A stretch of DNA of 64,000 bases from Prolixibacteraceae bacterium. GTDB taxonomy: Bacteria > Bacteroidota > Bacteroidia > Bacteroidales > Prolixibacteraceae. The notes under the pieces were generated by a model. That model did no database searches. It was not told where the DNA came from and saw only the letters and a program-made list of their open reading frames with translations. A program made the position numbers and the translations under genes. The stretch's first letter is position 1. Each line of letters opens with the position of its first letter. Below, piece by piece: positions 6,957 to 44,189 of this stretch. The stretch is taken from contig CANJNY010000012.1 of the NCBI GenBank assembly GCA_947475715.1, forward strand, positions 1-64,000, read 5' to 3'.

Positions 6957-9625
6957 TGACTAAGACTAAAGGGAGCAGCCATTACGGTATTCTATTTTTA
7001 TTTATTGCTATGTTTATCTCACTCCAGTCCAGGAGTCAGGAATGTGATGATAATGTGCTTAATGAAGCGCAAAAGAAATATGATATCGGATTATTTAGTG
7101 AGGTACAAAAGATGCTTCAGCCTTGTATGGAGAATGGATTTTCATCAAAACAGCTGATACAGGCTTACCGGCTAATGTCGGTTTCCAATCTGGCCATTGA
7201 TTCTACGAATGTGGCTATTTCCTTTGCGAATAAACTGATTAAGTTAAAACCTGATTTTGATGCCGAGCTTTTTGGCCCGCCCAAATTTGAAAAGATCATT
7301 AATGATATCAAACAAGCAGGATCGAGCATTCAGATTATATCGGTATCCAAACGGGCTGAGAATTTATACGAAGCACCTGCCACCGTGTTGGTTATCTCCC
7401 GCGAAGATATTATGAACCGGGGATATATTGATCTCGAACAGGTTTTTAGTGACCTGCCAGGGTTTGATGTTTCTCGCACCTTTGGGCCAACCTACTCAAA
7501 TATTTACCAGAGAGGTTACCGCTCTAATAATACGGACCGAACACTTTTCCTGGTTGACGGAGTTGAGGAAAATGATTTGTGGTCAAATATCTCCTATTGG
7601 TCCAGACAATTTCCCGTGTCAAATGTCGAAAGGGTAGAGGTTCTCTATGGCCCTGCCTCCACGATGTACGGGGCAAATGCACTTGTGGGGGTGGTGAATG
7701 TGATTACCAGAGATCCCGATCAACTGGCCGGCAAAAAGAATGTGGGAGTAAAAGTGAATACTGGCCTGGGTAGTTTCAATACGAAATATTTGGATATGAC
7801 CGTTGCTGCCAAAAAGAATAATGTCTCTTTTTCCACAACAATTAAACGATTCTCTTCATCTGAACAAAACCTTTCGGGTTATCCTGAGTTTAATTATGAT
7901 CCCGCTGATTACAATTCAACGGATTATGCATCATTTTTAAGCGTGAATTCAGGTGCTGCAGGATTTGTAAAAACAAATCATATTGCTGCTGATAATCCTT
8001 ACTTTACGATTAACAGAGATCAGAATGGGGATACCGTTTCAGTCGGATTAACTGAAGCAGGGGCTAATGCTGCCAGAAATTTTGATAAGGCCGCACTTAG
8101 CGAAAAATTAAATGGAAACTCACTCAAGTATTCAAACATCTCAGATCATTGGTATTTTAACGGCAAAATAAAGATGAAGAATCTCCAGATGGGGTATGAA
8201 TTCTGGAAAACCCAGTCTGGAGGTACTAATTACTATAACGATAACAATGAGGCAGGCTCAAATAACGGCAGTACCTGGGGCCCTAAGCAATCATTTTTCT
8301 ATATGAAATATGATAATAATGTTTCTGATAAAGTTAACCTGATGAACTTTTCAGAGTACAGGATTACTGAAGTTGCCGATAATTCGAAGGCTGTTTATCT
8401 GCTTAATTATTCGAATGGTTCGTTTGGAAGTGCCGATTTAGCTGCAAATGCAAGTCCCTTCTGGGTAACTGAGTACTATTATCAGATTTCAAGGCAATTT
8501 CGGAATGAATTTAAAATGACCTATAACCCTAATTCTCTACTTAATATAGTAAGTGGAATGGAAGTTAGAAATAGTTCAATTCAAGGGGATTACCGAACTG
8601 CCACCTATATTGGAAACGATCTTGTCGCGCCCGATAAAGTTCCAAATGCCCTTTTAAATCCGGGCAGTGTTATTGAAATAGGCAGAAGCTCCGGTGATGC
8701 GATTCGGGGGGGGAATGATTTCTCTATTTATGATCTGGGTGCCTATGCACAAGGGACTTTGAAGTTTAAAGATATTTACAAATTTACTGTTGGCGGACGT
8801 TATGATTATAATAAAATCCGGGTTACAGGAGGTTTCGGTTCACAGTTCAATCCACGAGTCGCTTTAGTGGTGACCCCTGGTAAATTTATCTTTAAGGCTG
8901 TTTATGCAAGTGCTTTTCAGAATGCATCAAACTGGACCAAATTTTCAACAAATACAGCAAGAAAAGTAAATAATCCAAATCTGACTCCTGAGAAAGTTTC
9001 AAATATCGATTTAAGCGTAGCATACCGTTTTACCAAAAACATATATGCCGATCTGGTCTATTATAATTCTCAGTTTAATGGGGTAGTAGGAACAGGAATT
9101 GTAAAATTGCCTGGTGGAACTTCAACAGGACAGAATCAGGCGATTGGCGCCCTTAAAATTCAGGGGCTACAATCGAATCTGACAATCAAATTAAATCAAT
9201 ATGCGTTCTATGCGAATTTCACCTATACCAATCCCCGGAATAATGTGCTGAAAAGCGGAGTGTTGACAAATACCTATCAACGCATTGGTGATATTGCTGA
9301 TTTTCATTTTAATACAGGGGTTAATGCAACCTATTTCAATCATCTTAATTTGAACCTGAGAATGAATTATGTGGGCAAGAGGCCTGTAGGGGCTGGAACC
9401 TCTGTTAGTGCGAATCCAGGTAACTTCCCGGCCTTTATGTTATTAAATGGCACGGTTATGTATAAGGAGATTCTACCCGGATTTAATGCACAACTGATTG
9501 TTAATAATTTATTGGACAAACAATATTCCGATCCGGGAATCAGATCAGCAGACGGCGGCTTTTATTCCTATCGTACACCACAGCGTGGACGGAATTTTTT
9601 AATCAGATTTATTTATGAGTTCTAG
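6956..9625 (+). CDS. TonB-dependent outer-membrane receptor with TPR-like N-terminal extension
   Basis: A signal peptide (hydrophobic core ILFLFIAMFISL, residues ~11-24) is followed by an unusual ~85-residue helical, TPR-like extension ending near FGPPKFEKIINDIK. The plug domain follows (residues ~125-240: SREDIMNRGYIDLEQVF, RGYRSNNTDRTLFLVDG, VERVEVLYGPASTMYGANAL), then a 22-strand-type barrel ending in an aromatic residue (IRFIYEF). The family imports siderophores, cobalamin or other large ligands using TonB energy; the plug resembles the CirA/BtuB/FecA group rather than SusC. It overlaps its upstream neighbour by 1 nt and the downstream gene by 11 nt. No SusD partner is adjacent, so a sugar-uptake SusCD role is unlikely. 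Ligand unknown. Confidence 0.88.
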   Translation: MTKTKGSSHYGILFLFIAMFISLQSRSQECDDNVLNEAQKKYDIGLFSEVQKMLQPCMENGFSSKQLIQAYRLMSVSNLAIDSTNVAISFANKLIKLKPDFDAELFGPPKFEKIINDIKQAGSSIQIISVSKRAENLYEAPATVLVISREDIMNRGYIDLEQVFSDLPGFDVSRTFGPTYSNIYQRGYRSNNTDRTLFLVDGVEENDLWSNISYWSRQFPVSNVERVEVLYGPASTMYGANALVGVVNVITRDPDQLAGKKNVGVKVNTGLGSFNTKYLDMTVAAKKNNVSFSTTIKRFSSSEQNLSGYPEFNYDPADYNSTDYASFLSVNSGAAGFVKTNHIAADNPYFTINRDQNGDTVSVGLTEAGANAARNFDKAALSEKLNGNSLKYSNISDHWYFNGKIKMKNLQMGYEFWKTQSGGTNYYNDNNEAGSNNGSTWGPKQSFFYMKYDNNVSDKVNLMNFSEYRITEVADNSKAVYLLNYSNGSFGSADLAANASPFWVTEYYYQISRQFRNEFKMTYNPNSLLNIVSGMEVRNSSIQGDYRTATYIGNDLVAPDKVPNALLNPGSVIEIGRSSGDAIRGGNDFSIYDLGAYAQGTLKFKDIYKFTVGGRYDYNKIRVTGGFGSQFNPRVALVVTPGKFIFKAVYASAFQNASNWTKFSTNTARKVNNPNLTPEKVSNIDLSVAYRFTKNIYADLVYYNSQFNGVVGTGIVKLPGGTSTGQNQAIGALKIQGLQSNLTIKLNQYAFYANFTYTNPRNNVLKSGVLTNTYQRIGDIADFHFNTGVNATYFNHLNLNLRMNYVGKRPVGAGTSVSANPGNFPAFMLLNGTVMYKEILPGFNAQLIVNNLLDKQYSDPGIRSADGGFYSYRTPQRGRNFLIRFIYEF

Positions 9626-10466
9626 GGAAATGACAATGGCAGAGATTGGAGCTGGATATATATTCACTAAGCCTAAAAGTATTTGTCAAAAGCTAAATGA
9701 ATGGGAGAAAAGTATTCTCCTTCTTGATAATCACGCCTTTATTAAGGTGTATAAGGAAAAAATTAAGGAAACGATTAATAGTTATGGGTTAAGCCTGAGA
9801 TTGGCAAATTTATCAGATATCGAACCGGTGTATGACTTTATTATATCCCGATTTAATAAGGAATATATTGATGATGTCAGTAAATACGACCTTTTTCGAT
9901 TTATTGAATATGGCCATGGCATAATTGTCGAAGATTCTCAAAACAAAATGTTAGGTTGCCTTTTTGAGGTTGGGTATGAAAAAAAGTGGAAAATCTCCTA
10001 TTCCCTTCGCCTGGGAATTGATGAAACACTCAAAGGGAAAGGACTGGCTAAACTGCTTACCGTTTATTCCTGTCTGCTGGCCATGGAACGTGGAGCCCAA
10101 CTGAAAATTGGTCTGATCAGCATCGATAACCTTGCAAGTCTTCATATTCATGTGAATCAGGTGGGGTGGCTGATTGACAAATTTTACTATAATCTCGATT
10201 CATTAGGGCTTAGTTTTGAATTTAGCCTTCCATTAACACCAGAATCATTACTCAGAAACCGAATCGATCTGAATAAAGTAAATACTTATATTGAAGAAAA
10301 TGTCGAGGGAATTGACTATTTACTCATAAATTATGATGATGTTGAGACCATTAAGTCTGTATATCATAACTCTGAATTTAAAATTGCGGCCATTATCACT
10401 AAAGATTTTAAAGGGGATAAACCTCAGTTTTTTGCATTACCCGTTAAAATGTTATATACCCAATAG
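9615..10466 (+). CDS. GNAT-like acetyltransferase-domain protein
   Basis: The central part (residues ~55-190) resembles a GNAT fold: LRLANLSDIEPVYDFI at its start and GKGLAKLLTVYSCL as the acetyl-CoA-binding region (usually Q/RxxGxG/A, here only partly kept), then ASLHIHVNQVGW. The C-terminal ~90 residues are not recognisable. The start at 9615 overlaps the TonB receptor by 11 nt; ATGs at 9630 and 9636 are alternatives. It is 12 bp upstream of the transporter gene, so it belongs to the same transcript. Acceptor substrate unknown; it could act on a protein of the same locus. Confidence 0.65.
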   Translation: MSSREMTMAEIGAGYIFTKPKSICQKLNEWEKSILLLDNHAFIKVYKEKIKETINSYGLSLRLANLSDIEPVYDFIISRFNKEYIDDVSKYDLFRFIEYGHGIIVEDSQNKMLGCLFEVGYEKKWKISYSLRLGIDETLKGKGLAKLLTVYSCLLAMERGAQLKIGLISIDNLASLHIHVNQVGWLIDKFYYNLDSLGLSFEFSLPLTPESLLRNRIDLNKVNTYIEENVEGIDYLLINYDDVETIKSVYHNSEFKIAAIITKDFKGDKPQFFALPVKMLYTQ

Positions 10467-10478
10467 TAAATCTGATCA

Positions 10479-13400
10479 ATGAAAAACGCATTTCGAAATG
10501 CCCTTAATATCAGGAAAGGAGAAGAGACAGCCATTATCCTGCTGTTACTCTATTCCTTTGTTATGGGAGCTGTAATTGCATTTTTTTATACCTCCGCAAC
10601 CTCAATGTTTGTTGTGAATTTTGAGAGTTCCATGTTGCCTTACGCTTATATCTGCGGAGGTATTTTGAGTTATCTGGCATGGATAGTCTATGCACGAACT
10701 GAACGGAGAGTAAATTTTCAGGCGCTTTCTCTTCTGGGTATTGTTATCCTTCTAATTGCGGTGATCACCTTTGTGGCCGGAATTCATTATTTCAATGGCA
10801 AATGGCTGATATTTCTAATGTTTGCATGGATTCGTGTATTTATATTCATATCTGTTATCGGCTTCTGGGGTTTGGCAACCAAAATATTCGACCTGCGTCA
10901 GGGGAAACGGATTTTTGGCCTAATCAGTTCGGGTGAGGTAATTTCCGATATCATTGGCTTTTTATTAATCCCATTTGCCCTGCATTTTATTAAGACTTCC
11001 GATTTACTCTATATTTCCCTCCTGGGATTGGGAATATGCCTTTTTCTGATGATCTATATTTTCAGGAGATTTAAAACAACATTAAATGTAAAGGAGTCAA
11101 TCGAGGGTCATAAACAGAAGACCTCTTTTAAAAGGGTGTTTAAGGATAAATATATTAAAATACTTATTCTGATGGCAATCCTGCCCATGTTTGGAATGTG
11201 TTTTGCAGACTTCTCCTTTTTACATCAGATTAAACTGGAATATAACAATCAGGAGGTACTGGCAAGCTTCCTGAGTATCTTCCTCGCAGCTACAGCCGTG
11301 GCTGAGTTTGTCCTTAAATCATTCCTTTCAGGTAGATTACTCCTTAAATATGGGTTAAAAGTGGCGCTTCCGATTTTGCCCATCGTCCTTGCAGGGTGTG
11401 TTTTCCTTGCAATCTCATCGGGAATATTATATGGAACTACCGGACTGTTCTTCTCATTTATAGCGCTTACAAAAATGTTCGACAGGGTATTACGGAGTGC
11501 TCTTTACGACCCTTCATTTCAGATATTGTACCAGCCACTCCCTGCAGAAGATCGGCTGAATTCTCAAAGTATGATTGAAGGGATGGGTAAAGGATTAGGC
11601 TTTGCACTTGCCGGAGCTGTTGTTCTGATTTTCTCTCAGATAAGGGAGGTCAATCTGGTCTATTTTAATATCCTTTTCATCATTATTCTTGGAATATGGG
11701 TTAAGATTAGCCTGAGTATGTACCATGAATACCGAAACTCGCTGAGCAAAATACTTACCTTAAAAGATAAAAATCATTCAACGGATGGCAATTATATAGG
11801 TTCTAATTTGTCAGTACTGAGCAAAATTACGGAGGAGAAAAAGGATGCCAATATTAGCCTGATCATGAATATAATGGTTAATATAGATCCTCAGAAAATG
11901 ACCCGGTTCCTGCAACAGATATTGGCATTTCCAACATTAATCAATCAGGAAAAAATCCTTGAACAAATAAAGCGCAGAAGATTACTGTCTGCAGAACAGG
12001 TCGTACAGAATCAGTTACTTGCCAATCCCGATACGATTCATAAAGAGTTATTTGACCATACATTGTCTGTTTTGCGACAGGTTAAGAGTAATGATTTTGA
12101 AACTTTGCTGTTTTTGTCGCAATCTACTGAAGCTAAACAAAGGACTCTGGCTGCTCATATTCTGGCTTACTTTAGCAGTTATAAAATCCATAAAATTATG
12201 CTTGCACTGTTGCAGGACGAAAACCCCGAAACCCGTAAAGCAGCCATTTACAGTGCCGGTCAGATCGGAAAACGGGAATTATGGAACTATGTTATCCAAA
12301 ACCTCTCTCACCCCAATTATTCATCCCAGGCAATTACTGCCATTAAGATGATCGGGGAACCAATCTTATCTGAGCTTGATATCTGGTTCGATAAGAATAC
12401 AACGACTAAGGATATGAGACTTAAAATCATTTCCATTTTTTCAAGCATCAGTTGTGAGAAGTCGTTAAATTTCCTTCGTTCTCATATCCATTATCCCGAT
12501 GAGGCAATTCGAAATCAAGTATTTAAAGCCCTAAGCCGATTAGAATACCGGGCCCGAATTATGGAGGTAAGCCGGATTAAGGAGACTATTGATGAGGAAA
12601 TTGCAATCACTGTCTGGGTAATGGCCGCTACGCTGGATATCGAAAAAGAGAGCGAGATGCCATTATTATTTGAGGCATTACAGTATGAATTGATCCAGAA
12701 AAAGGAGAATGTATTTCTGTTGCTTTCGATGTTATATGATGCAAAAACGATCAACTTTATTAAGGATAGCTTTCAATCGGGCACACATGAATCCATGGCT
12801 TATGCCGCAGAAATGCTTGATCTAACTGTCTCCACCGAGATCAAAGAGATATTTCTTCCGCTTCTCGAAGATTTATCCGTTGAGGATAGCCTGAGGCTTT
12901 TCAAAGATAAATATCCGCAACAAAAAATGACTGTTGCTGATCGGCTTAAAGATATTATCAATAAAGACTTTCTGAAAATAAACCGCTGGACAAAAGCTTG
13001 TGCAATTTTTTATCTGAAAGATTTTCCGGGCAATGAAACTGTTTTCCTTTCCAATCTGCTGAATCCCGATCCATTTATCATGCAGAACGCTATGACAGTG
13101 CTTAAACAACAAAATTCCGAACGATTTAAGGTTGTTTTTCCTAAATTGGGTAAGGATAAATTGAGTTTTATTCAGAAATATACCATTGAAAATGGTAAAG
13201 AAACTCTCCGGTTCTCACTTGCCGAAAAGGTAAACCGGGTGAAAAAAAACCTGCTGTTTAGTACATTCTCTAACCCGGATATCTGCAGAATAATTGAAAA
13301 TGCTTCCGATATTCTGCTTCAGGCTGGTGAAGAACTTGATCCTGGAGAACGTTCACAGGATTCAATTCTGATGGTTTTGTCAGGTAAACTTTCCGAATTC

Positions 13401-13601
13401 TCCGACAATCAAAGAAAAAGAGAGTTAATTGAGGATCAATTTTATTGGGGAATCGTAAATGACGGTTATGTGAATACCCGGCTCAAAGCCGAAACGGACT
13501 CTCTGATACTGGTTTTAAGTCCGGAGTTGATTTTTAATGCGATGGCAGAAAATAGTGCCTTTACACTTGAAGTAATTGAAATCTTAAATAAAACAGCATA
13601 A
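10479..13601 (+). CDS. NTT/MFS-like nucleotide-transporter-type protein fused to HEAT repeats and cNMP-binding-like domain
   Basis: Residues ~1-420 contain about 12 membrane helices in the style of ATP/ADP (Npt1/Npt2, NTT) translocases, the MFS-related group first known from rickettsiae and chlamydiae. Residues ~430-860 are helical pairs of HEAT type (for example LLQDENPETRKAAIYSAGQI). The last ~130 residues look like a cyclic-nucleotide-binding-fold domain (GEELDPGERSQDSILMVLSG). Fusions of this order occur in environmental Bacteroidota, where they are unlikely to steal host ATP and may instead sense or move nucleotides. It sits 12 bp after the GNAT-like gene and 11 bp before the giant sensor. 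Transport substrate and ligand are not deducible. Confidence 0.72.
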   Translation: MKNAFRNALNIRKGEETAIILLLLYSFVMGAVIAFFYTSATSMFVVNFESSMLPYAYICGGILSYLAWIVYARTERRVNFQALSLLGIVILLIAVITFVAGIHYFNGKWLIFLMFAWIRVFIFISVIGFWGLATKIFDLRQGKRIFGLISSGEVISDIIGFLLIPFALHFIKTSDLLYISLLGLGICLFLMIYIFRRFKTTLNVKESIEGHKQKTSFKRVFKDKYIKILILMAILPMFGMCFADFSFLHQIKLEYNNQEVLASFLSIFLAATAVAEFVLKSFLSGRLLLKYGLKVALPILPIVLAGCVFLAISSGILYGTTGLFFSFIALTKMFDRVLRSALYDPSFQILYQPLPAEDRLNSQSMIEGMGKGLGFALAGAVVLIFSQIREVNLVYFNILFIIILGIWVKISLSMYHEYRNSLSKILTLKDKNHSTDGNYIGSNLSVLSKITEEKKDANISLIMNIMVNIDPQKMTRFLQQILAFPTLINQEKILEQIKRRRLLSAEQVVQNQLLANPDTIHKELFDHTLSVLRQVKSNDFETLLFLSQSTEAKQRTLAAHILAYFSSYKIHKIMLALLQDENPETRKAAIYSAGQIGKRELWNYVIQNLSHPNYSSQAITAIKMIGEPILSELDIWFDKNTTTKDMRLKIISIFSSISCEKSLNFLRSHIHYPDEAIRNQVFKALSRLEYRARIMEVSRIKETIDEEIAITVWVMAATLDIEKESEMPLLFEALQYELIQKKENVFLLLSMLYDAKTINFIKDSFQSGTHESMAYAAEMLDLTVSTEIKEIFLPLLEDLSVEDSLRLFKDKYPQQKMTVADRLKDIINKDFLKINRWTKACAIFYLKDFPGNETVFLSNLLNPDPFIMQNAMTVLKQQNSERFKVVFPKLGKDKLSFIQKYTIENGKETLRFSLAEKVNRVKKNLLFSTFSNPDICRIIENASDILLQAGEELDPGERSQDSILMVLSGKLSEFSDNQRKRELIEDQFYWGIVNDGYVNTRLKAETDSLILVLSPELIFNAMAENSAFTLEVIEILNKTA

Positions 13602-13612
13602 TAATTCAAACG

Positions 13613-16600
13613 ATGATTAGCAAAGAAGTAAATAAGAGTTCATGTTTTACACTCCTTGTAATTCTGTTTTGGATGTTGACTCCGATATGTTCGTTGGCTC
13701 AGAGTCAGGATGTTGGCTTTCCATATATTAAAAACTATGCTCCCTCGGAATATAAAGCCCATGTTCAGAATTTTGATGCCGTTCAGGATAACCGGGGGAT
13801 CATGTATTTTGCCAATTTCCGCGGAATACTTGAATTTGACGGGCAAACCTGGAGAACCATTCAAACATCAAAAATATCACAGGTTACCTCCCTGGCGATC
13901 GATTCTACCGGAACCATTTTTGTTGGAGCAGCCGGCGAAATAGGATTTCTTAAGCCAGATGCCAAGGGGGAATTGCTTTTTTCAAGTTTGGACGATGCAT
14001 TAAATCAGGAGGATCGTAATTTTAAATACATTATTACAATTCTGGCTACTAAAACAGGGGTATATTTCGTTACCGATAGCTCCATTTTAATCTGGAATAA
14101 CGGTTCATTCAAGACCATAAAGGGCGAAGGATCCATTAATGCAGCATATTATGTAAATGATAAACTTTTTTTCTTCGATAAAGGAAATGGATTACAATAT
14201 CTTCAAAACAACCAGAAGATTAAGGTTGTAACCGGAAATCAATTTTCGGAGGCTATCGTTATCAAAGGAATGGTGCCGTATGGGGCAGACAAAGAACTTA
14301 TCGCTACAGGTATAAATGGCCTCTTGTTATTGGATCAAAATGGTATTTCCAATTTTCGCACCTCTGATGATAAATTTTTGCAGCAAAATAGTATCTCCTG
14401 TGCCACTTTACTTAAAGATGGCACCATCTGTCTGGGTACCGAACGCGGTGGTCTGGCAATCTTTTATCCCGATGGTACTTTAAAACAAAAAATAGATCAG
14501 GGAATCCAGAACGATTATATCAGGGCCTTATTTATTGACAGTCGGGATGTCCTATGGTTAGCACTTGATAATGGTATCTCTCGTATTGAGATTCCTTCGT
14601 GTCTCTCTTTCTTTGACAGCAAGCGAGGAATTGACGGAGCCGTTAATCAGATTCTGCGCCATAATGGGAATATCTGTTTTGCTACCGATAAAGGGTTGTA
14701 TCATTATGACGACACTCAAAAAAAATATGCAGCCATAACCGGAATCAATTCGGCCTGCTGGTCGGTATTATCGGATAATAATTCAATTATTGCTGCAACA
14801 AGCAAAGGTATTTTTATAACAACCGGTAATTCAGCAGATCTGCTGGCACCCGGGTTTTCCTTCAAATTATTTCGCTCAAATATTAATAATTCCAATATCT
14901 ATGTAGGGCAACTCGATGGGATCACCCATTTACAGAATGTGAATGGAAAGTGGATTTCCAAAGGTAAGATTCAGGGAATAACTGGTGAAGTTTCTGAAAT
15001 CCAGGAGGATCAAAACGGCCTGTTATGGGCTGTGGTGGCTACCGAGGGATTGGTGAGAATAAAACCTGACGGGGGTGAGAATCCGGTGTTTTATGATGAG
15101 ATGAAAGGTTTGCCTTCGCGATTTGGAAATCACCTGAACAAGGTTGTAAGTTCGTTGGTTGTGACTACTCAAAATGGAGTGTTTTCATACGATGCAAATA
15201 CAAATAATTTTGCACCAATGAAAAAACTCCTCAATGATACGGTGATGCCAAAAGAGTGGATATCGGCTATCGTAGAGGATTCCAAAGGTAATCTTTGGAG
15301 TACCGGAGGGGATCAAACAAGTATTCAAATCCGCAATGCAAATGGGAAAACAGATCAATCTCAGCTATTGTTGAATCCGGTGCAGGATAAAACCATCTCT
15401 ACAATCTATCCTGAACCAACCGATAAGGTTTGGTTTGGTGGTACCGATGGCGCGTTTTGTTATGATCCTGGAATTCAGAAAAATATGACAAAAATCCCGG
15501 AGGTCCTGATTCGCAGCTTTATTATTGCAGGAGATTCAACGATATTCGGTGGAACTTTTATAAATAAAGATAATCGTATTTCGACCACTCAACCCGGGCA
15601 ATTAATGCCGGTTTTAGATTACAAATTAAATACCGTGGCATTTAGTTTCGCCAGTCCATCCTTTAATATGTACGAAGCTGTTCATTTTCAATATTTCCTG
15701 AAGGGATTTGACAAGGAGCCATCTTCCTGGATTACAGACATATATAAAGAATACACTAACTTACCTGCAGGTGAATATACCTTTACCGTAGTGGCCCGAA
15801 ATATTTATGGTCAAATTACCGCTCCGGCTACTTTTCGGTTCGCTGTTAAAAAACCATTTTATCAAACGTATGTAGCTTATCTGCTTTATCTGCTGTTTTT
15901 GGTCGGTTTAATCTATACCGTGGTTCGGATTCGTTCACAAAAACTGATTCAGGAAAAGAAAAATCTGGAACATTTGATTCTGGAGCGCACGGCAGAAGTG
16001 GTAAGCCAAAAGGAAGAGATTGAAAAACAATCGGAAGAGCTGACTAATAAAAATGCAGAACTTGAAAAGATCAACCTGATTGTTAAGTCGATCAATTCTG
16101 AAATCCATTTTTCCAGTCTGCTCCAATCACTTCTGGAAAAAACAAAAGTGATTGGTGGTGTCCAAAAGGCAACGATGCTGGTTCATGATAAAGCCTCCGC
16201 TTTATTTAGTTTTAAAGCCGGATTTGGGTGGGATGTCGCTTCGGTCTCCTCTGTCCATTTAACCCTTAATGAAGTCGAAGATTATTATTTATCGAAGGCT
16301 AGCGAGGTTTATGAGGATATCTTTGAAGTAAAGAAAATCAATTCCGATGCAGCAAATGAAGGCTTTTTAAAGGTTGAGAATGCAAAATCAACTGTTATTA
16401 TGGTGGTTAGGGTGAAGGATATGGTTGAAGGATTCCTGATTCTGGAGAATATGCAAAAAAAGAAGGCGTTTAATTCTTTTGATTTTAGCTTGTTACATAA
16501 TCTCAAAGAACATGTCATCTCTGCATTTATTAAAACCATCATCCTTGAGGATTTGCAAACAACCCTTATAAATCTTAAAGAGACTCAGGACCAACTTATT

Positions 16601-17392
16601 CAGCAGGAAAAAATGGCTTCTATCGGTCAACTTACCAAAGGTATCGTCGACCGGATACTGAATCCATTAAACTACATTAATAATTTCTCGCTCATAACCA
16701 GAGATTTGTCTGTTGAAATCGAGGAGATTCTGGCAGATATTAAGGATACGATGGAGCCCGATACCTTTGATGATCTTACCGATATTCTGGGAATGGTGAA
16801 ATCAAATGTGCTCAAGGTGAATGAGCATGGCACTTCTGCCTCACGTATTGTTAAGGGAATGGAGAAATTATTAAAGGAAAGGTCTAAAATATTTAAGCCT
16901 ACCGATTTAAATACACTTATAGAGAGCCATATTGAAATTGCCTTACAGGAATATACGGCAGAGAATAAATCGTTTAAGGTTGAGATTAAACAAAATTTGG
17001 ATGCTAAGTCAAATAAAATTAAAGTCTTGCCGGCAGAATTAGGGTCTGTAATTGTGAATACCGTTTTAAATTCCTTTTATGCTGTTGAGGAGAAGATGAA
17101 GAAGGTTGCTGATTTCCAGCCACAGGTCATCGTCTCAACCGATTTTTCAGAGGATTTTGTTAAGATTAGTATCCGTGATAATGGGAATGGAATTCTTGCG
17201 ATGGAACAAAAGCAGTTGTTCTCCCCATTCTTCACCACCAAACCAACTTCAAAAGGGACAGGACTGGGTTTATATATGAGTATGGACATCATTAAATCGC
17301 ATAAAGGGACCATAGAGGTGGATTCAAAAGATGGCGAATATGCCGAATTCATCATCAAGATTCCTAAAAATGAGGAGCTCCCAAATGATTAA
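13613..17392 (+). CDS. Reg_prop/Y_Y_Y sensor with GAF-like and histidine-kinase-like domains, phosphoacceptor His replaced by Asp
   Basis: A signal peptide (cleavage near SLAQ) is followed by a two-propeller periplasmic sensor of Reg_prop repeats (residues ~35-660), a Y_Y_Y domain (~680-755), one membrane helix (~760-780), a coiled coil (~785-830), a GAF-like domain (~835-980) and a kinase-like core. Where the family has G-I-x-H-E-I-K-N-P-L-N, this protein reads GIVDRILNPLN: residue 1013 is Asp (GAC; a His codon CAC differs by one base), and the neighbouring Glu and Lys are also changed. The ATP-lid motifs are kept (RDNGNG and KGTGLGLYM), although the N box has NTVLN where the neighbour has NLVDN. 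It therefore probably binds ATP but cannot autophosphorylate on the usual His. The intact kinase follows 82 bp downstream. Confidence 0.87.
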   Translation: MISKEVNKSSCFTLLVILFWMLTPICSLAQSQDVGFPYIKNYAPSEYKAHVQNFDAVQDNRGIMYFANFRGILEFDGQTWRTIQTSKISQVTSLAIDSTGTIFVGAAGEIGFLKPDAKGELLFSSLDDALNQEDRNFKYIITILATKTGVYFVTDSSILIWNNGSFKTIKGEGSINAAYYVNDKLFFFDKGNGLQYLQNNQKIKVVTGNQFSEAIVIKGMVPYGADKELIATGINGLLLLDQNGISNFRTSDDKFLQQNSISCATLLKDGTICLGTERGGLAIFYPDGTLKQKIDQGIQNDYIRALFIDSRDVLWLALDNGISRIEIPSCLSFFDSKRGIDGAVNQILRHNGNICFATDKGLYHYDDTQKKYAAITGINSACWSVLSDNNSIIAATSKGIFITTGNSADLLAPGFSFKLFRSNINNSNIYVGQLDGITHLQNVNGKWISKGKIQGITGEVSEIQEDQNGLLWAVVATEGLVRIKPDGGENPVFYDEMKGLPSRFGNHLNKVVSSLVVTTQNGVFSYDANTNNFAPMKKLLNDTVMPKEWISAIVEDSKGNLWSTGGDQTSIQIRNANGKTDQSQLLLNPVQDKTISTIYPEPTDKVWFGGTDGAFCYDPGIQKNMTKIPEVLIRSFIIAGDSTIFGGTFINKDNRISTTQPGQLMPVLDYKLNTVAFSFASPSFNMYEAVHFQYFLKGFDKEPSSWITDIYKEYTNLPAGEYTFTVVARNIYGQITAPATFRFAVKKPFYQTYVAYLLYLLFLVGLIYTVVRIRSQKLIQEKKNLEHLILERTAEVVSQKEEIEKQSEELTNKNAELEKINLIVKSINSEIHFSSLLQSLLEKTKVIGGVQKATMLVHDKASALFSFKAGFGWDVASVSSVHLTLNEVEDYYLSKASEVYEDIFEVKKINSDAANEGFLKVENAKSTVIMVVRVKDMVEGFLILENMQKKKAFNSFDFSLLHNLKEHVISAFIKTIILEDLQTTLINLKETQDQLIQQEKMASIGQLTKGIVDRILNPLNYINNFSLITRDLSVEIEEILADIKDTMEPDTFDDLTDILGMVKSNVLKVNEHGTSASRIVKGMEKLLKERSKIFKPTDLNTLIESHIEIALQEYTAENKSFKVEIKQNLDAKSNKIKVLPAELGSVIVNTVLNSFYAVEEKMKKVADFQPQVIVSTDFSEDFVKISIRDNGNGILAMEQKQLFSPFFTTKPTSKGTGLGLYMSMDIIKSHKGTIEVDSKDGEYAEFIIKIPKNEELPND

Positions 17393-17398
17393 TAATAA

Positions 17399-17453
17399 TT
17401 GTTAATTACTTAAAAAAAATGTACATTCGTGTAAACCTGTTAGAACTAACAGG
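17399..17453 (+). promoter_or_regulatory. promoter-like motif and 8-bp-arm hairpin before the small kinase
   Basis: In the 82-bp gap there is TTG (17399-17401), 20 nt, and TACATTCG (17422-17429), one mismatch from the Bacteroidota -7 consensus TAnnTTTG. Directly after it lies a perfect inverted repeat CCTGTTAG-AA-CTAACAGG (17436-17453), which would be at the 5' end of a transcript starting there. It could be an operator or an RNA hairpin setting the ratio of pseudokinase to kinase. Confidence 0.35.
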
Positions 17454-17474
17454 GAAATAAAACTTTAAAAGTAT

Positions 17475-18353
17475 ATGGATATATCCGATAAAATTTCGCC
17501 TGCTACTGAAGAGCAACTTTTGCTTCTTTCAACAGAACTGGAGGAGATCAAGGAAAAATTTATACAAAGCGATAAGCTTGCTTTTATCGGTAAACTTACA
17601 ACCGGTATCATGCATGAGATTAAAAACCCGCTTAATTTCATCAATAATTTCACACGTTTAAGTAAAGAACTTATTGGAGAATTAAATGATATAATTGACG
17701 GAATCAGTGATAATCTGGATGAGGATACCAAGGCAGACCTGGATGATGTGCGTTCGATGCTTGAGGCTAATTTGACTAAAATACTTGAAAATGGGGAACG
17801 GGCTCAACGAATTATTATCTCAATGCTGGCTCAGATGCACAGTGAGCAGGTGGTTGTTTTTGCCCCGGTGGAGATTAATAAACTGATTGAAGAATTTGGT
17901 AAAATAGCTTATCAGGGGATGCGGGGAAATGACAGTGAATTTAATCTCACCTTCAAAACTGATTATGACCCTTCGATTACCCTGGTAAATATGGAATTTC
18001 AGCAGATGAGCAGAGTAATCATTAATCTGGTCGATAATGCATGCTATGCCTTGAATGAAAAAAGGAAAAAGATGATTGGGAATTTTTCTCCTGAAATTCT
18101 TTTGGCAACTAAAAAACTGGATGAATATATTGAAATAAGGATAAGGGACAATGGAAGCGGAATGCCTCAGTCGGTTATTGATCAGCATTTTAAGCCATTT
18201 TTTACAACAAAGCCAAAAGGACAGGGGACGGGATTAGGCCTCTCGCTGAGTTATGATATAATCACGAATGTTCATAAAGGGAAGATGGAGATTTTATCCC
18301 AACAAGGTGAGTATACCGAATTTAGGATTCTAATTCCATCAAATTTGGCTTAA
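17475..18353 (+). CDS. soluble HisKA/HATPase histidine kinase
   Basis: A 292-residue cytosolic kinase with no sensor domain. A short helix (residues 10-33) leads straight into the dimerisation/phosphoacceptor segment GKLTTGIMHEIKNPLNFI, with phosphoacceptor His47. The ATP-binding domain has an N box with NLVDNACYAL, G1 IRDNGSGM, an F box FKPFFTTK and G2 GTGLGLSL. Its kinase core is closely similar in layout to that of the giant upstream sensor, so the two probably arose from one ancestor and may form heterodimers (inference). Its stop overlaps the ATG of the next gene (TAATG). The likely phosphotransfer partner in the locus is the REC-PP2C protein 650 bp downstream. Confidence 0.9.
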   Translation: MDISDKISPATEEQLLLLSTELEEIKEKFIQSDKLAFIGKLTTGIMHEIKNPLNFINNFTRLSKELIGELNDIIDGISDNLDEDTKADLDDVRSMLEANLTKILENGERAQRIIISMLAQMHSEQVVVFAPVEINKLIEEFGKIAYQGMRGNDSEFNLTFKTDYDPSITLVNMEFQQMSRVIINLVDNACYALNEKRKKMIGNFSPEILLATKKLDEYIEIRIRDNGSGMPQSVIDQHFKPFFTTKPKGQGTGLGLSLSYDIITNVHKGKMEILSQQGEYTEFRILIPSNLA

Positions 18354-18934
18354 TGAGAAAATTATTCTTTATGGTTGCAATCTTATTGTCTAATCAATTA
18401 ATTGCACAGGTGGCTGTAACTGTTCATCATTATGATTACTTTAATTTCTCCACAGATTTTAAAAATACACGCTCAACAGTGAGTGTCTTTGCAAGTAAGA
18501 ACCTTGGCAAGTCATTTAGTTTTACATCGTTCAGCCTGGTTAATAAAAAATGGGGAGAAAGTCTTATCGGATTGGAATATAGGCCATTGAAATGGCTGTC
18601 GATCGAGGGAGAGGTTGGTATAGAAACCAATGTGGAAGCTTATGGTATTAAGAGAAATCTCATACGAACAGCCCAGGTGATAACCGTTTCGGCCAATAAA
18701 TTCTTATTTTTGGGTACTTTTGAGCAAGGTAGTCTTCCATGGTTTGATCTGCGCTCCTTGTATATGATGAAACAGGCTGGGATAGGGATAATGGCCAGTC
18801 AGTATTATGGCGTTGGCCCGGTAATGCAGTACCATTTTGGTAAAAGTCCTTTTACCCTTTGGTCATCCTGGATCTATAACTGGGACACTTATGAATACGG
18901 ATCAATGATTGGAATATATTTTAAAATGCGATAA
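18353..18934 (+). CDS. exported small beta-barrel-like protein
   Basis: The first ~19 residues (MRKLFFMVAILLSNQLIAQ) are a signal peptide. The mature ~174 residues consist of alternating aromatic/polar strands (FTLWSSWIYNWDTYEYG) and end in a strand, as in small outer-membrane barrels. No named family recognised. It overlaps the kinase stop by 1 nt, so its synthesis is coupled to a cytosolic kinase, which is an unusual pairing and suggests a surface component of the same pathway. Confidence 0.75.
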   Translation: MRKLFFMVAILLSNQLIAQVAVTVHHYDYFNFSTDFKNTRSTVSVFASKNLGKSFSFTSFSLVNKKWGESLIGLEYRPLKWLSIEGEVGIETNVEAYGIKRNLIRTAQVITVSANKFLFLGTFEQGSLPWFDLRSLYMMKQAGIGIMASQYYGVGPVMQYHFGKSPFTLWSSWIYNWDTYEYGSMIGIYFKMR

Positions 18935-19006: not shown

Positions 19007-20191
19007 ATGGAAACTACAGTAGCAATTTTATGCGTCGATGATGAGCAGGATATGGAAATGCTTATCACTCAGAAATTCAGAAAAAGTATCCGAAATAAGG
19101 AATACAGCTTTGTTTTTGCACAAAATGGGCTTCAGGCACTCGAGCAATTAGATAAAAATCCCGATATCTGCTTAGTCCTTTCGGATATTAACATGCCTGA
19201 AATGGATGGATTAACATTCCTTTCGAAAATCAAGGAGCGTAAAAACTCTGAATTGAAAACGGTTATGGTATCTGCTTATGGGGATATGGAAAACATCCGT
19301 ACCGCCATGAATCGCGGGGCTTTTGATTTTATTACAAAGCCCATTAATTTCGAGGACATGGAAATTACAATCACCAAAACCGTAGAGGAGATCAACCAAT
19401 ATAAGAAGTTTCAGAAAGACCGCGATCATCTGGTATCTATTAAAAAAGACCTTAGCATTGCCTACGATATTCAACAGTCAATGTTGCCCCAGAAATTTCC
19501 GGCATTCCCGGATCGTACCGATTTCGACCTTCATGGAGTGCTTCAACCCGCTAAAACCGTAGGTGGTGATCTGTTCGACTATTTCCTGATTGATGAAGAT
19601 CATCTGTTTTTTATGGTGGGTGATGTTTCTGATAAGGGAATATCTGCGGCTTTGTTTATGGCGATCACCAAATCACTCTTTAACAGTAACTTCTCGAGTA
19701 CTAAAACTCCTGATATGGTTGAGGAGATTGGTAAGATTAACAGGGCTCTCTCCCATAATAATGAGGCGATGATGTTTGTTACGATTTTTGTGTGCATTCT
19801 CAATCTCAAAACAGGGGAAGTGAACTATGTTGACGGAGGCCATGAATGTCCCCTGATTCTTCGTGGCGGAAAAAAAGTCGAGGTTTTTAAGAAAGCAAAT
19901 GGCTTTCCGCTGTGTATCGACCCCGATTTTGATTACAAACAATTTCAGTTTTACCTCCAACCCGGCGACTCGATTGTGTTGTATACCGATGGACTCGAAG
20001 ACGCCCATAATACTGCCGACAAACGCCGAACCATTCAGCCTGCAATTGAGGCCCTGGAGGCTTTGGAACCAAATCTGACCCCGGCACAAATAAACGGGAT
20101 ACTTCTTAAAGAGGTCAATGAATTTATTGGCACTGCTCCCCAATTTGATGATATCACAATTCTCACTGTAAATTATTATGGACAATCCTGA
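19007..20191 (+). CDS. response regulator with SpoIIE/RsbU-type PP2C phosphatase output
   Basis: Residues ~5-125 form a receiver domain: acidic pair Asp11/Asp12, phosphoacceptor Asp60 in LSDINMPEMDG, the switch Ser in VSAYGD and Lys in ITKPINF. After a short coiled linker, residues ~170-392 form a PP2C-type serine phosphatase of the SpoIIE/RsbU group with GGDLFDYF, GDVSDKGISAALFM, GGHECPLIL and DDITILTV carrying the metal-binding Asp residues. In known systems such proteins dephosphorylate STAS anti-anti-sigma factors. It lies 72 bp after the barrel gene in the same direction. The STAS protein encoded at 25.1 kb is a possible substrate. No RsbW-like anti-sigma kinase gene is visible in the window. 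Confidence 0.93.
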   Translation: METTVAILCVDDEQDMEMLITQKFRKSIRNKEYSFVFAQNGLQALEQLDKNPDICLVLSDINMPEMDGLTFLSKIKERKNSELKTVMVSAYGDMENIRTAMNRGAFDFITKPINFEDMEITITKTVEEINQYKKFQKDRDHLVSIKKDLSIAYDIQQSMLPQKFPAFPDRTDFDLHGVLQPAKTVGGDLFDYFLIDEDHLFFMVGDVSDKGISAALFMAITKSLFNSNFSSTKTPDMVEEIGKINRALSHNNEAMMFVTIFVCILNLKTGEVNYVDGGHECPLILRGGKKVEVFKKANGFPLCIDPDFDYKQFQFYLQPGDSIVLYTDGLEDAHNTADKRRTIQPAIEALEALEPNLTPAQINGILLKEVNEFIGTAPQFDDITILTVNYYGQS

Positions 20192-20341: not shown

Positions 20342-21193
20342 ATGAAAAGACATTTTTTTAGGACGGGATTTATGTTTTTGATAACAATCCTGATATTTTC
20401 AGGTTGTAGTCCAAGACCAAAGGGTAAGGAAAATCAGGTAAAAAACTCGAAAGGCCAGACAGGAACAGTAGAAGTTGAAATCTTTGATGCTGTTAAGTTC
20501 AAAGATCAGCTGGTCGAAATCATTAAAACGGCCCCTAATTCCGGCGACCTTGTAGATTTTATAAATAAGGTTGGTTATTCATATATGGCTGACCTTACCC
20601 TCTCAACTGATAATGCAGAGAAATACATTACCGTCGCAGAACAGAGCACAGCTATAGGAATCTATAAGTTTGACCTCCTTTATGCCAAAGCTTATAATCG
20701 CTTTGATGTTGCAAGTCAAATTTTTGAAGTTCAGGAAAAACTGATAGAAAAGATTGGCCTGCAGGGCGATCTTGCAGCCATGAAAAAATACAATGAACGT
20801 TTAAAGCATAATAAAGATAATTCAGACTCTCTGAACGTTATTGTTTCTGCTGCGATGAATGAAGTGGCGCAAAACTATTTATCCGGCGAGCATTCTGGTG
20901 TGTATGCCTTGTCCTATATTAGTGCCAACATTGAAGGGTTATACATTCTTACTCGTATTGCCTCAATGTCCAAGGAGAATGCCGAGATCATTAAGGTAAT
21001 TGGGCTACAAAAAGAGCGGGTTAAAACCAATTATCAACTATTGGAAATTATGGCGGCAGATCCGGCAATAAACATAATTTTTGAAAAGATGAAACCAATT
21101 TTAAGCTCTTTTAGCGCACCGGAATTTACAGCCAAACAACTTGCCGAAGTAACTCCCTTAATTGCCGGATTACGAAATGAAATGGCTAAATAA
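20342..21193 (+). CDS. lipoprotein of unknown function
   Basis: The start MKRHFFRTG with a hydrophobic stretch and the lipobox IFSGC (Cys22) predicts a lipoprotein. The mature part is largely alpha-helical and soluble, with no repeats and no family I recognise; its spacing of helices is reminiscent of a helical-bundle periplasmic binding or adaptor protein, but this is weak. A 150-bp AT-rich gap separates it from the phosphatase gene, so it may have its own promoter. It is followed immediately by a strong terminator. Confidence 0.75.
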   Translation: MKRHFFRTGFMFLITILIFSGCSPRPKGKENQVKNSKGQTGTVEVEIFDAVKFKDQLVEIIKTAPNSGDLVDFINKVGYSYMADLTLSTDNAEKYITVAEQSTAIGIYKFDLLYAKAYNRFDVASQIFEVQEKLIEKIGLQGDLAAMKKYNERLKHNKDNSDSLNVIVSAAMNEVAQNYLSGEHSGVYALSYISANIEGLYILTRIASMSKENAEIIKVIGLQKERVKTNYQLLEIMAADPAINIIFEKMKPILSSFSAPEFTAKQLAEVTPLIAGLRNEMAK

Positions 21194-21219
21194 TTTTTTT
21201 TGAAAACAAAATAGTTGAT

Positions 21220-21256
21220 GCCTGTATCTTGATGCCAAGATACAGGCAATATTTTT
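21220..21256 (+). terminator. Rho-independent terminator after the lipoprotein gene
   Basis: A perfect 12-bp stem GCCTGTATCTTG / CAAGATACAGGC with loop ATGC is followed by AATATTTTT. It starts 27 nt after the lipoprotein stop and splits the signalling locus from the ABC transporter gene 38 bp further on. Confidence 0.85.
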
Positions 21257-21293
21257 AATAGTGAGGTTCAAATTCTATTCCAGCGATTAACCG

Positions 21294-24200
21294 ATGAATG
21301 AAATTACACTAAATGCACTGATTAACCTTTTTGCCATATTCTCGGCAATTACCCGGTCAGAACGGGAGTATGCAAAAAAATCATTCTCTTCCTATCTTGA
21401 ATTGCATTTGGGGATTTCATCCTCCGAAGAGTATCAAAAATTATTTGATGAATTGATCGGTTTCTATGGAATTGATGAAACAGAGGAGCCTTTGACCGAT
21501 ATGATTCAACAGGCCGAATCAATCTGTCTAAACATCAGGGGAAGACTACACCGAACAGAACAAATCATGTTGTTTCTTCGGTTCCTTGAACTTGCCCGCA
21601 AAGAAGAGGATCAACGTAAAGCCGGAGAATTATTTCAGACTGTGGCCACCGCTTTTACCATAACTCCCGAAGATTACAGTAAATATTGTACTTTTATTTA
21701 CGGACTCACCACCAGTAATACCCAATTGGATGACTTTTTGATTGTTAATAAAGATTCAGACAATAATCTCCAGGCTTTAAAACACCTCCAACGGGAGAAT
21801 CTCGATGGCGAATTAGTATTCCTTTTGCTGAGCGCTATCGGTCATTATATTTTTATCTTCAGGGGAAAGGAAAATCTTTACCTGGAAGGAAACCCAATCT
21901 TGCCAGGCCGGTTTTATGCCTTTAAGGAAGGGGGTATTATCCGGGGTGCCAGAATCTCACCGGTTTACTTTACCGATGTAAATACAGCATTCTTTAATAA
22001 AGCGGAGACTCCACTCTTTACCCTTAATGGCCAAAATGCCGAGTTTAAATTTAAAAATAGCCAGAATGGTCTCTATGAAGTGAGCTTCTCGGAACAATCA
22101 GGCCAGCTTGTGGCAATCATGGGTGGCAGTGGAGTTGGAAAATCAACCTTGCTAAATGTCCTCAATGGAAATATCCCCTTAGATAAGGGACGAATTCTGA
22201 TCAATAATCTGGATATTCAAGAACATAAAAAAGAGACTGAAGGATTGATCGGGTTCGTACCTCAGGATGATCTGCTTTTTGAAGAACTTACTGTCTGGGA
22301 AAATTTGTATTACAATGCCCGGCTCTGTTTAGCAGGCTTTAAAGAGGAGCAGATTAATAAAGCAGTTACCAAAGTGCTTCAGGAGCTGGAATTATTTGAA
22401 TTTCGTGATTTGAAGGTGGGAAGTCCCCTGAAAAAAACCATCAGCGGAGGCCAACGAAAACGGCTCAATATCGCACTCGAATTAATCCGTGAGCCGTCGA
22501 TTTTATATGTGGATGAACCCACTTCCGGACTCTCTTCAATGGACTCAGAAAAGGTCATGTTACTTCTGAAGCATCAGGCCAGACAAGGGCGCCTGGTTAT
22601 CGTAAACATCCATCAACCATCATCAGATATTTTTAAACTATTTGATAAGCTATGGATTATGGACAAAGGCGGACGGATGATCTATACTGGAAACCCCCTT
22701 GACGCCATAATTTATTTTAAAAACCTGACCAACCATGTCAATGCGCTCGAATGTGAGTGTCTCCAATGCGGGAATGTAAACCCTGAGCAGGTTCTTGAAA
22801 TTGTCGAAACCAAAAAGATCGATGAATCGGGTAATTTTATCCCTGAGCGCCGTTTCCCGCCGGCAGAGTGGTATCGCCTATTTAAGCAAAACATTGAAAA
22901 AGAGGTCTCTTCAGATAACCTTCTCAATGAAGAAATCCCTAAAACACACTTTAAGAAGCCTGGCATCTGGAGCCAACTTCAGATTTTCTTTTCCCGAAAT
23001 ATGCGGATCAAGTTGTCTGATAAACAATACCTGCTCATTAACCTCTTTGAAGCTCCAATATTGGCCCTGATTGTTGGGTATTTTACAAAATATTCTGAAG
23101 GGACCCAATATCTCTTTGCTCAGAATAAAAATCTGGTCTCTTATATCTTTATGGCAATTGTAGTGGTGCTTTTCATGGGTATGAGCGTAAGCGCTGAGGA
23201 GATTATCAAAGATCGGAAAATCCTTCAGCGCGAATCATTCCTCAATTTGAGCAGGTTCAGCTATATCAATTCAAAAGTGCTTTTTCTGATTTTATTGTCA
23301 GCATTTCAAACCCTTACATTTGTCCTTGTCGGTAATCTGGTCGTTGGTATCCATGGTATGAATATGGCTTACTGGCTTGTCCTTTTTTCAGTGTCAGTTT
23401 TCTCAAATCTCTTAGGGCTAAATATTTCATCTGCCTTTGATTCAGTGGTTACTATCTACATCCTGATCCCTTTGCTTTTAATCCCTCAGATCCTGTTGTG
23501 TGGGGTTATCGTGAAATTTGATGACCTTCAGGACAAAGCTGCAGATAAAGATTGTGTCCCTTTCGTAGGTGAAGTGATGGTGGCACGCTGGGCTTTTGAA
23601 GCATTAGCGGTGGAACAATACAAGGGGAATAGTTATATGGCTGATTTTTTTGAGCAGGAAAAGGAGTTGTCTCAGGTTAAATACCGTTCTGATTTGCTGC
23701 TGACAGAACTTCTTGGAAGAGTTGAATTTATCGCAGGAGAGATTAATAAAGGTGAACCGGCGGCTAAATTTGCATCCAAACTAACCATTATTCGGAATGA
23801 AATTAAAAAACTTGATAAGGATGAAGTGTTGCCTGCTTTGGAAATCGCAGATTCAATTACACCTGAAAAATACTCAGCTTCCATTGCTAAATTAGCCAAA
23901 AAACATCTAACCGATTTGCAGAGCTATTACCTTGGATTGAAAAGTTCATTGCGGAAAAAAGCGGATAATAAGGTATTTAAACTGAATCAGCAATTCGGCA
24001 AGAATTATCTTTTCGATCTCAAACAACAATTCCATAATCAGGCAATTGAAAGCCTGGCTATGAATGGCGGTTCAAATGAATATTACAGGGAGACCGCTTC
24101 GGGGCTTACACAGAAAGTCGCTCCAATCTATAAAGTTCCTGAATTCAATAATGGCAGAGCCCATTTCATGGCTTCCGAAAAAAAGATCTTCTCTCTTTCT

Positions 24201-24302
24201 GTTGATACTTTAGTTTTTAATGTATTGATTATTTGGCTTATGTCGATTTTACTATATGTCGCCTTGTATTTTGACTGGATCAGGAAAGTTTTTAACAGGT
24301 AA
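21294..24302 (+). CDS. ABCG-type half transporter with TerB-like N-terminal region
   Basis: Residues ~1-145 resemble a TerB-like helical domain (tellurite-resistance-associated fold). Residues ~250-470 are an ABC ATPase: Walker A GGSGVGKST (277-285), signature ISGGQRKRLNIAL, Walker B ILYVDEPTSGLSS, switch His in NIHQPSSD. This order (ATPase before membrane domain) and motif set are those of the ABCG/White group. An ABC-2-type permease follows (~590-760), then a long soluble helical region (~770-960) and one final helix (~975-995). The inserted helical region before the last helix is longer than in typical ABCG proteins. Substrate unknown. Same strand as the locus but behind a terminator. Confidence 0.85.
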   Translation: MNEITLNALINLFAIFSAITRSEREYAKKSFSSYLELHLGISSSEEYQKLFDELIGFYGIDETEEPLTDMIQQAESICLNIRGRLHRTEQIMLFLRFLELARKEEDQRKAGELFQTVATAFTITPEDYSKYCTFIYGLTTSNTQLDDFLIVNKDSDNNLQALKHLQRENLDGELVFLLLSAIGHYIFIFRGKENLYLEGNPILPGRFYAFKEGGIIRGARISPVYFTDVNTAFFNKAETPLFTLNGQNAEFKFKNSQNGLYEVSFSEQSGQLVAIMGGSGVGKSTLLNVLNGNIPLDKGRILINNLDIQEHKKETEGLIGFVPQDDLLFEELTVWENLYYNARLCLAGFKEEQINKAVTKVLQELELFEFRDLKVGSPLKKTISGGQRKRLNIALELIREPSILYVDEPTSGLSSMDSEKVMLLLKHQARQGRLVIVNIHQPSSDIFKLFDKLWIMDKGGRMIYTGNPLDAIIYFKNLTNHVNALECECLQCGNVNPEQVLEIVETKKIDESGNFIPERRFPPAEWYRLFKQNIEKEVSSDNLLNEEIPKTHFKKPGIWSQLQIFFSRNMRIKLSDKQYLLINLFEAPILALIVGYFTKYSEGTQYLFAQNKNLVSYIFMAIVVVLFMGMSVSAEEIIKDRKILQRESFLNLSRFSYINSKVLFLILLSAFQTLTFVLVGNLVVGIHGMNMAYWLVLFSVSVFSNLLGLNISSAFDSVVTIYILIPLLLIPQILLCGVIVKFDDLQDKAADKDCVPFVGEVMVARWAFEALAVEQYKGNSYMADFFEQEKELSQVKYRSDLLLTELLGRVEFIAGEINKGEPAAKFASKLTIIRNEIKKLDKDEVLPALEIADSITPEKYSASIAKLAKKHLTDLQSYYLGLKSSLRKKADNKVFKLNQQFGKNYLFDLKQQFHNQAIESLAMNGGSNEYYRETASGLTQKVAPIYKVPEFNNGRAHFMASEKKIFSLSVDTLVFNVLIIWLMSILLYVALYFDWIRKVFNR

Positions 24303-44156: not shown

Positions 44157-44189
44157 TAAATTCTTATATCTGCCTGTATAATAATGCAT

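Follow-up and report, generated by a model that had tools for sequence, protein, structure and literature searches.

The locus analyzed here raises the question of how a giant sensor protein that has lost its phosphoacceptor histidine takes part in signal transduction, and what its relationship is to the intact, sensorless histidine kinase encoded beside it. In the following, PK denotes the sensor pseudokinase, HK the short partner kinase, RR-SpoIIE the regulator encoded downstream (Table 1), and the window the whole stretch of 64,000 nucleotides that was analyzed. The initial annotation, in which RR-SpoIIE was absent, had described PK and HK as a duplicated core split into a sensing and a catalytic half, perhaps acting as a heterodimer.

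Table 1. Features of the PK–HK–RR-SpoIIE locus (nucleotide positions refer to the window)
Feature	Position	Strand	Description
PK, sensor pseudokinase	13613–17392	+	1259 aa; Pfam Reg_prop, Y_Y_Y, HATPase_c, no HisKA; two-component-regulator propeller, Y_Y_Y, one transmembrane helix, GAF-like region, signal helix, pseudo-DHp, CA
PK transmembrane helix	about residues 753–775		orthologues show a hydrophobicity maximum around residue 760
PK pseudo-phosphoacceptor motif GIVDRILNPLN	16640–16672	+	begins at residue 1010
PK Asn1017 (H+4)	16661–16663	+	conserved (37/37 PK cores), although in cores retrieved with the search pattern the pattern itself demands it
PK catalytic/ATP-binding (CA) domain	17036–17389	+	from about residue 1142
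HK, partner histidine kinase	17475–18353	+	292 aa; His47 intact; only a signal helix before DHp
Outer-membrane-like protein	18353–18934	+	193 aa; separates kinase and regulator in near orthologues; outside the core module
RR-SpoIIE, receiver (D60) and SpoIIE/PP2C phosphatase domain	19007–20191	+	394 aa; Pfam Response_reg 5.6e-24, SpoIIE 3.5e-42

Kinase motifs and features of the locus

The open reading frames and an alignment of the two proteins bear out the reading that the phosphoacceptor His is replaced in the giant sensor by Asp1013 (GAC, 16649–16651), and that the flanking Glu and Lys are altered, to Arg1014 (CGG, 16652–16654) and Leu1016 (CTG). By comparison with the definition of a HisKA histidine kinase, PK lacks both the phosphoacceptor His and the acidic residue that follows it, the two positions being occupied by Asp and Arg in all family members. 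In the CA domain of PK, alignment locates the N, G1, F and G2 boxes, in agreement with the annotation that the nucleotide-binding G boxes remain, and the DHp–CA fold is present in the predicted structure: the AlphaFold model of the PK core is an ordinary DHp–CA (mean pLDDT 84), for which the best PDB match by Foldseek is ZraS (9jfj, E 6e-19).

HK reads GIMHEIKNPLN, with His47 (CAT, 17613–17615) followed by Glu48 and Lys50, and thus has the HExxN motif (H47-E48-I-K-N51) and CA boxes that define a HisKA kinase. Pfam detects HATPase_c in both proteins and HisKA in HK only (HK: HATPase_c 3e-19; HisKA 7.9e-6, just below the curated cut-off). HK has no sensor domain, and a search of its orthologues for hydrophobic segments found none of transmembrane strength; the open reading frame, Pfam and these hydrophobicity data therefore agree with the earlier description of a neighbour with an intact His47 and no sensor. 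The PK and HK cores share ~39% identity over an alignment that begins at the signal helix and ends with the last G box; it is free of gaps in the signal helix and in DHp helix 1. RR-SpoIIE has the residues of an RsbU-like RR-PP2C protein, both in the receiver (D11, D12, D60, K111) and in the SpoIIE domain (GGD, GDVSDKG and DD motifs).

The 82 bases between PK and HK (17393–17474) contain a TTG / TACATTCG pair which, one mismatch apart, looks like a Bacteroidetes promoter; HK may therefore also be transcribed from a promoter of its own. Directly upstream of the sensor lies a gene for a 1040-aa fusion of an MFS-like membrane protein with HEAT repeats (10479–13601), which is conserved in Asp-Arg (DR) and intact systems alike. 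The flanks of the module (9615–10466 and 20342–24302) encode a GNAT-like protein, a lipoprotein-like protein and a 1002-aa ABC transporter, genes that are kept in several orthologous operons. Two more large open reading frames in the window (40950–44189, minus strand; 53278–56328, plus strand) are partly similar to the propeller/Y_Y_Y sensor.

Conservation and distribution of the Asp-Arg motif

A homology search of GTDB genomes and relatives of the host returned eight distinct PK orthologues besides that of the window (L009–L015 and L017, some under two locus ids). These are 57–85% identical, all read GIVDRILNPLNYI[NT], and all adjoin an intact HEIKNPLN kinase, whereas the deeper relatives L016 and L018–L024 (cores ~50% identical) read HEIQNPLN. 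The homologue alignment that the initial annotation had proposed thus identifies Asp1013 as a stable trait, conserved in every homology-found orthologue; its counter-prediction, that most orthologues would have His at this position, does not hold, since all of them have Asp-Arg. Furthermore, independent assemblies carry these residues with differing synonymous codons (Asp: GAC/GAT; Arg: CGG/AGG/CGC/CGT), so that Asp1013 is not a sequencing error.

We also searched DNA for the pattern G-h-h-D-R-h-h-N-P-L-N. Matches were obtained in 10 of the 393 genomes from the order, in 3/395 from the phylum, among them members of another order and another class, in 6/100 from the family and in 15/60 from a second family. 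With these matches, and zero for a reversed control pattern, the DR motif cannot be attributed to chance. As the pattern fixes D, R and NPLN, their invariance among pattern-found members follows by construction; the homology-found set, a class-wide pattern in which the His position was left free, and residues outside the pattern provide evidence independent of it. The free-position pattern returned Asp alone. Outside the pattern, four positions separate the PKs from the 43 HKs: position 1021 (H+8) is Tyr in 37/37 PKs and Phe in 43/43 HKs; position 1075 is Ser, Asn, Thr or Val in PKs and Arg in 43/43 HKs; position 1084 (HK residue L118) is Glu or Gln in PKs and Leu in 43/43 HKs; and the Arg at position 1145, kept in 43/43 HKs, is lost in PKs. 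In a tree of 53 kinase cores, from which the motif columns had been removed, all 23 DR cores formed one clade (100/100). Judging from these sequences, the PK family is spread over Bacteroidota, and the monophyly of the DR cores with the motif columns removed indicates that they have a single origin.

Nucleotide-binding residues and selection

Residues N1153, D1189, G1191, G1193, T1209, G1217 and G1219 are invariant over the 37 PK cores. The first N-box Asn is kept in 20/37 and missing in 17/37, and the first G2-box residue (G1215) is Gly in 17/37 and Ala in 20/37; the window PK has both the Asn and the Gly. These changes in roughly half of the PKs weaken trans-kinase action as a universal mechanism. 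PK dN/dS is about 0.05–0.11 in all regions, about 0.05–0.10 across DHp and CA and 0.05–0.07 in CA, with values for DHp and CA no higher than in the intact kinase, dS being near saturation beyond the closest pair. The comparison of PK sequences shows that the nucleotide-binding residues are retained under purifying selection and that the loss of His and Glu is stable.

The proposed division into a sensing and a catalytic half fits well insofar as the pair is co-inherited, PK is a true pseudokinase and HK is sensorless. However, PK is not purely a sensing half, because it keeps a full nucleotide-binding domain.

Association of PK with HK and RR-SpoIIE

A short intact HK (a frame of 275–376 aa) lies directly beside PK at 31 of the 38 PK genes that were read in context. 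Sixteen of these pairs come from a first set, and the rest from a later set, a family examined after the rule had been stated, where 15/15 were paired (in two draft assemblies of this set, the kinase frame of L216 is shortened and the frames of L220 are broken). Among the seven unpaired PKs, L113_9298 and L116_15843 are second PKs in clusters that have a short HK. The other five belong to clusters without one: the PK of L127 comes after full-length intact kinases, and those of L110, L111, L117 and L126 stand alone. The L110 and L111 genomes have a free short HK directly before RR-SpoIIE on another contig, and the L117, L126 and L127 genomes contain another, paired PK. RR-SpoIIE is in the cluster at 29/29 paired loci with a long enough contig.

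In 61 related genomes, a few of them outside the pattern search but covered by the protein search, the short partner-type HK occurs in 8/8 genomes with PK and 0/53 others (Fisher 3e-10, an optimistic value in that it ignores kinship). The PK tree for 29 pairs agrees with that of HK in 21/26 splits (Mantel r 0.97; 0/2000 permutations), a match that is explained in part by the shared descent of neighbours. In each of two genomes with two pairs, both PKs and HKs group by pair type and not by genome; this grouping is independent of species descent. Taken together, the trees and gene neighbourhoods show that PK and HK have been co-inherited as a pair and that the three genes constitute a conserved module.

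Some clusters have unusual arrangements. L116 (6849–19598) has two genes for DR pseudokinases and one for an intact short kinase, along with RR-SpoIIE and a gene for a YadA-head-repeat protein, and in L127 (8649–18867) a DR pseudokinase comes last, after three intact full-length kinases arranged in tandem. The closest relative, L017 (1–5652), has a PK 85% and a regulator 95% identical to those of the window, but its genes upstream of PK are 39–49% identical, compared with 77–89% in more distant relatives; the upstream half of its operon has apparently been replaced.

Evolution of the kinase cores

The notion of a duplicated core that was split is not supported by the core tree, in which the DR clade stands apart from all intact cores and HK falls among intact kinases; the PK and HK cores are anciently diverged, and a recent tandem duplication is rejected by the same tree. 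A single origin of all partner HKs was not rejected (p 0.35).

One-piece kinases occur in related contexts. Genomes that lack PK can have an intact kinase of 882–891 aa immediately before RR-SpoIIE. In addition, we identified eight intact giants that share the upstream operon and have PK-like sensors; among them both the short HK (0/8) and RR-SpoIIE (0/8) are missing; since the latter is missing as well, these giants do not represent a clean swap for PK. When the sensor tree was rooted with other propeller proteins, the sensors of the intact giants were nested among those of the PKs (97/94, grouping with the window clade and L109). A topology that keeps them out of the PK sensors had a p-AU of 0.011, but the narrower test of the window clade plus L109 against the giants was not significant (p 0.09). 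The cores of the intact giants are of the intact type and lie apart from the DR cores. PK and the intact giants are therefore not simple H-versus-D alleles of one protein, as the sensor tree nests the giants within PKs and the core tree separates them, a disagreement that makes core exchange likelier than point reversion. If the rooting is right, the direction of this exchange seems to have been from PK to intact, a reading to be taken with caution given the long branches and the lack of RR-SpoIIE in the intact-giant operons.

Propeller/Y_Y_Y sensors related to that of PK are fused to SpoIIE in L081 (712–3933, minus strand), L073 (1384–4728) and L075 (790–4053, minus strand), which independently links this sensor type to PP2C output. 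In L074, a related propeller/Y_Y_Y sensor is fused to a guanylate cyclase.

A putative three-gene relay and alternative modes of PK action

We favor, with a probability of about 0.55, a three-gene relay in which PK senses and controls HK, probably in a direct complex, and HK phosphorylates the RR/PP2C regulator. Membrane-anchored PK would sense the outside via its propeller/Y_Y_Y domain. PK cannot be expected to autophosphorylate, because the His and the adjacent acid are missing. We know of no precedent for Asp serving as a new phosphoacceptor from ATP. HK is predicted to be cytosolic and has no input domain, so that its activity would be set by PK, most simply through a direct complex, either a parallel signal-helix/DHp heterodimer or a PK–HK dimer-of-dimers. 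His47 of HK would be phosphorylated by HK's own CA, or in trans by that of PK, and the phosphate would then pass to Asp60 of RR-SpoIIE, whose SpoIIE phosphatase may act on a STAS-type anti-sigma antagonist (partner switch). We infer the control of HK by PK, their direct contact, the trans-phosphorylation, the regulator as target and the STAS protein as substrate. The conserved neighbourhood indicates a shared pathway, not a heterodimer; a PK–HK heterodimer is plausible, with co-inheritance and the gap-free alignment of the signal helix as indirect pointers. The one-piece intact kinases before RR-SpoIIE in genomes without PK, and the lack of a short HK beside intact giants with PK-like sensors, speak for the relay, whereas the five PKs whose clusters contain no short HK speak against it. 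Contig 9 of the host genome (65910–70910, L198) encodes STAS, RsbW-like HATPase_c_2 and STAS proteins and a second RR-SpoIIE within 5 kb; partner switching is thus available as an output, and this cluster is a likely partner-switch output for such regulators.

Broader, and held only tentatively at somewhat less than even odds, is the proposal that PK represents a Bacteroidota-wide, previously undescribed class of sensory pseudo-histidine kinases with the signature D-R-x-x-N-P-L-N-Y. Its members would work only within an asymmetric heterodimer whose other half is a dedicated kinase without a sensor, PK bringing signal and CA and the partner the phosphoacceptor, and some lineages would have returned to a one-piece form by core exchange.

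Alternatively, a PK homodimer may act on the regulator and not on HK, either as a sensor-gated RR~P phosphatase or as a platform that docks or sequesters the regulator, opposing a constitutively active HK. In CrdS, HK853 and other HisKA kinases, kinase activity alone depends on the acid after the His, and phosphatase activity alone on the Asn/Thr at H+4 (PMC3510030); as exactly the His and the acid are lost in PK and the H+4 Asn is kept, a phosphatase or RR-docking role is to be taken seriously beside control of HK. Furthermore, PK and HK do not differ at the RR-docking positions H+7, +11 and +12, and DivL binds RR~P through a docking face that it has kept, although DivL itself has no phosphatase activity (PMC4211667). 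However, every kinase of the subfamily has the same NPLN..NF segment, so that its retention in PK is not specific, and the PK surface has changed: every PK has Tyr at H+8 where every HK has Phe, two HK-invariant arginines are lost, and HK residue L118 is replaced by Glu or Gln. On balance, we regard direct action on the regulator as possible but rather doubtful.

Feedback on HK by a PK that recognizes the phosphorylated regulator, in the manner of DivL with DivK~P and CckA, is unlikely. The change is of the same kind, with the His replaced and the DHp–CA fold and docking face kept, and in both cases there is a partnership with an intact kinase; yet PK is itself equipped with a large sensor, HK has no other input, and reading of the regulator is not needed to explain the pair.

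Losing a catalytic residue is a usual first step of decay, but the view that Asp1013 is a decaying or erroneous residue in an ordinary operon neighbourhood is already refuted by the Asp-Arg of all orthologues, the independently varied codons, the low dN/dS over DHp and CA, and the monophyly of DR cores that share further private residues (Y1021, S/N1075, E1084).

Comparison with known systems

The PK–HK relay proposed above has partial counterparts. DivL of Caulobacter resembles PK in that its phosphoacceptor His is replaced (Tyr550), its DHp–CA fold is kept and it works via an intact kinase, CckA; PK differs in its Asp-Arg, its sensor, the adjacent partner kinase gene and the RR-PP2C regulator, and while DivL binds ATP weakly, the nucleotide residues of PK are largely kept. 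FasB and FasC of group A Streptococcus are likewise two kinase-like proteins with one response regulator, for which two-hybrid data support heterodimers and no homodimers, but the proposed pseudokinase FasC keeps a phosphorylated His and its kinase domain is dispensable, a reversed division of labour. In Pseudomonas, RetS controls GacS by heterodimer formation, as proposed for PK and HK; these, however, are hybrid kinases of a multi-kinase network in which RetS inhibits, whereas PK and the sensorless HK are encoded by adjacent genes. CheA3/CheA4 of Rhodobacter also split the kinase job over two proteins, one of which lacks the catalytic domain; PK and HK both keep CA, and as HK has both phosphoacceptor and CA, the pair is not a split kinase of this type. 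In Corynebacterium, wild-type ChrS and HrrS heterodimerise and an inactive kinase promotes signalling via its intact paralogue, but the ChrS pseudokinase is a laboratory-evolved CA truncation, in contrast to the natural His loss in PK. None of these five systems has the residue signature of PK, a sensorless partner or a PP2C output, and a search of the open literature for pseudo-histidine kinases in Bacteroidota/Bacteroidetes found no case.

Implications

Histidine kinases are usually homodimers, which makes it hard to separate the sensor of one protomer from the chemistry of the other. In the PK–HK pair, which is natural, old and widespread, one protein cannot be phosphorylated and the other is unable to sense. 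Such pairs would allow cis and trans phosphorylation, phosphatase function and signal transmission to be studied separately; material for comparison would be provided by dozens of them and by the counterparts that occur naturally in one piece. Annotation of DR-signature proteins as ordinary sensor histidine kinases should be avoided; a PP2C phosphatase, not a DNA-binding regulator, is their likely output.
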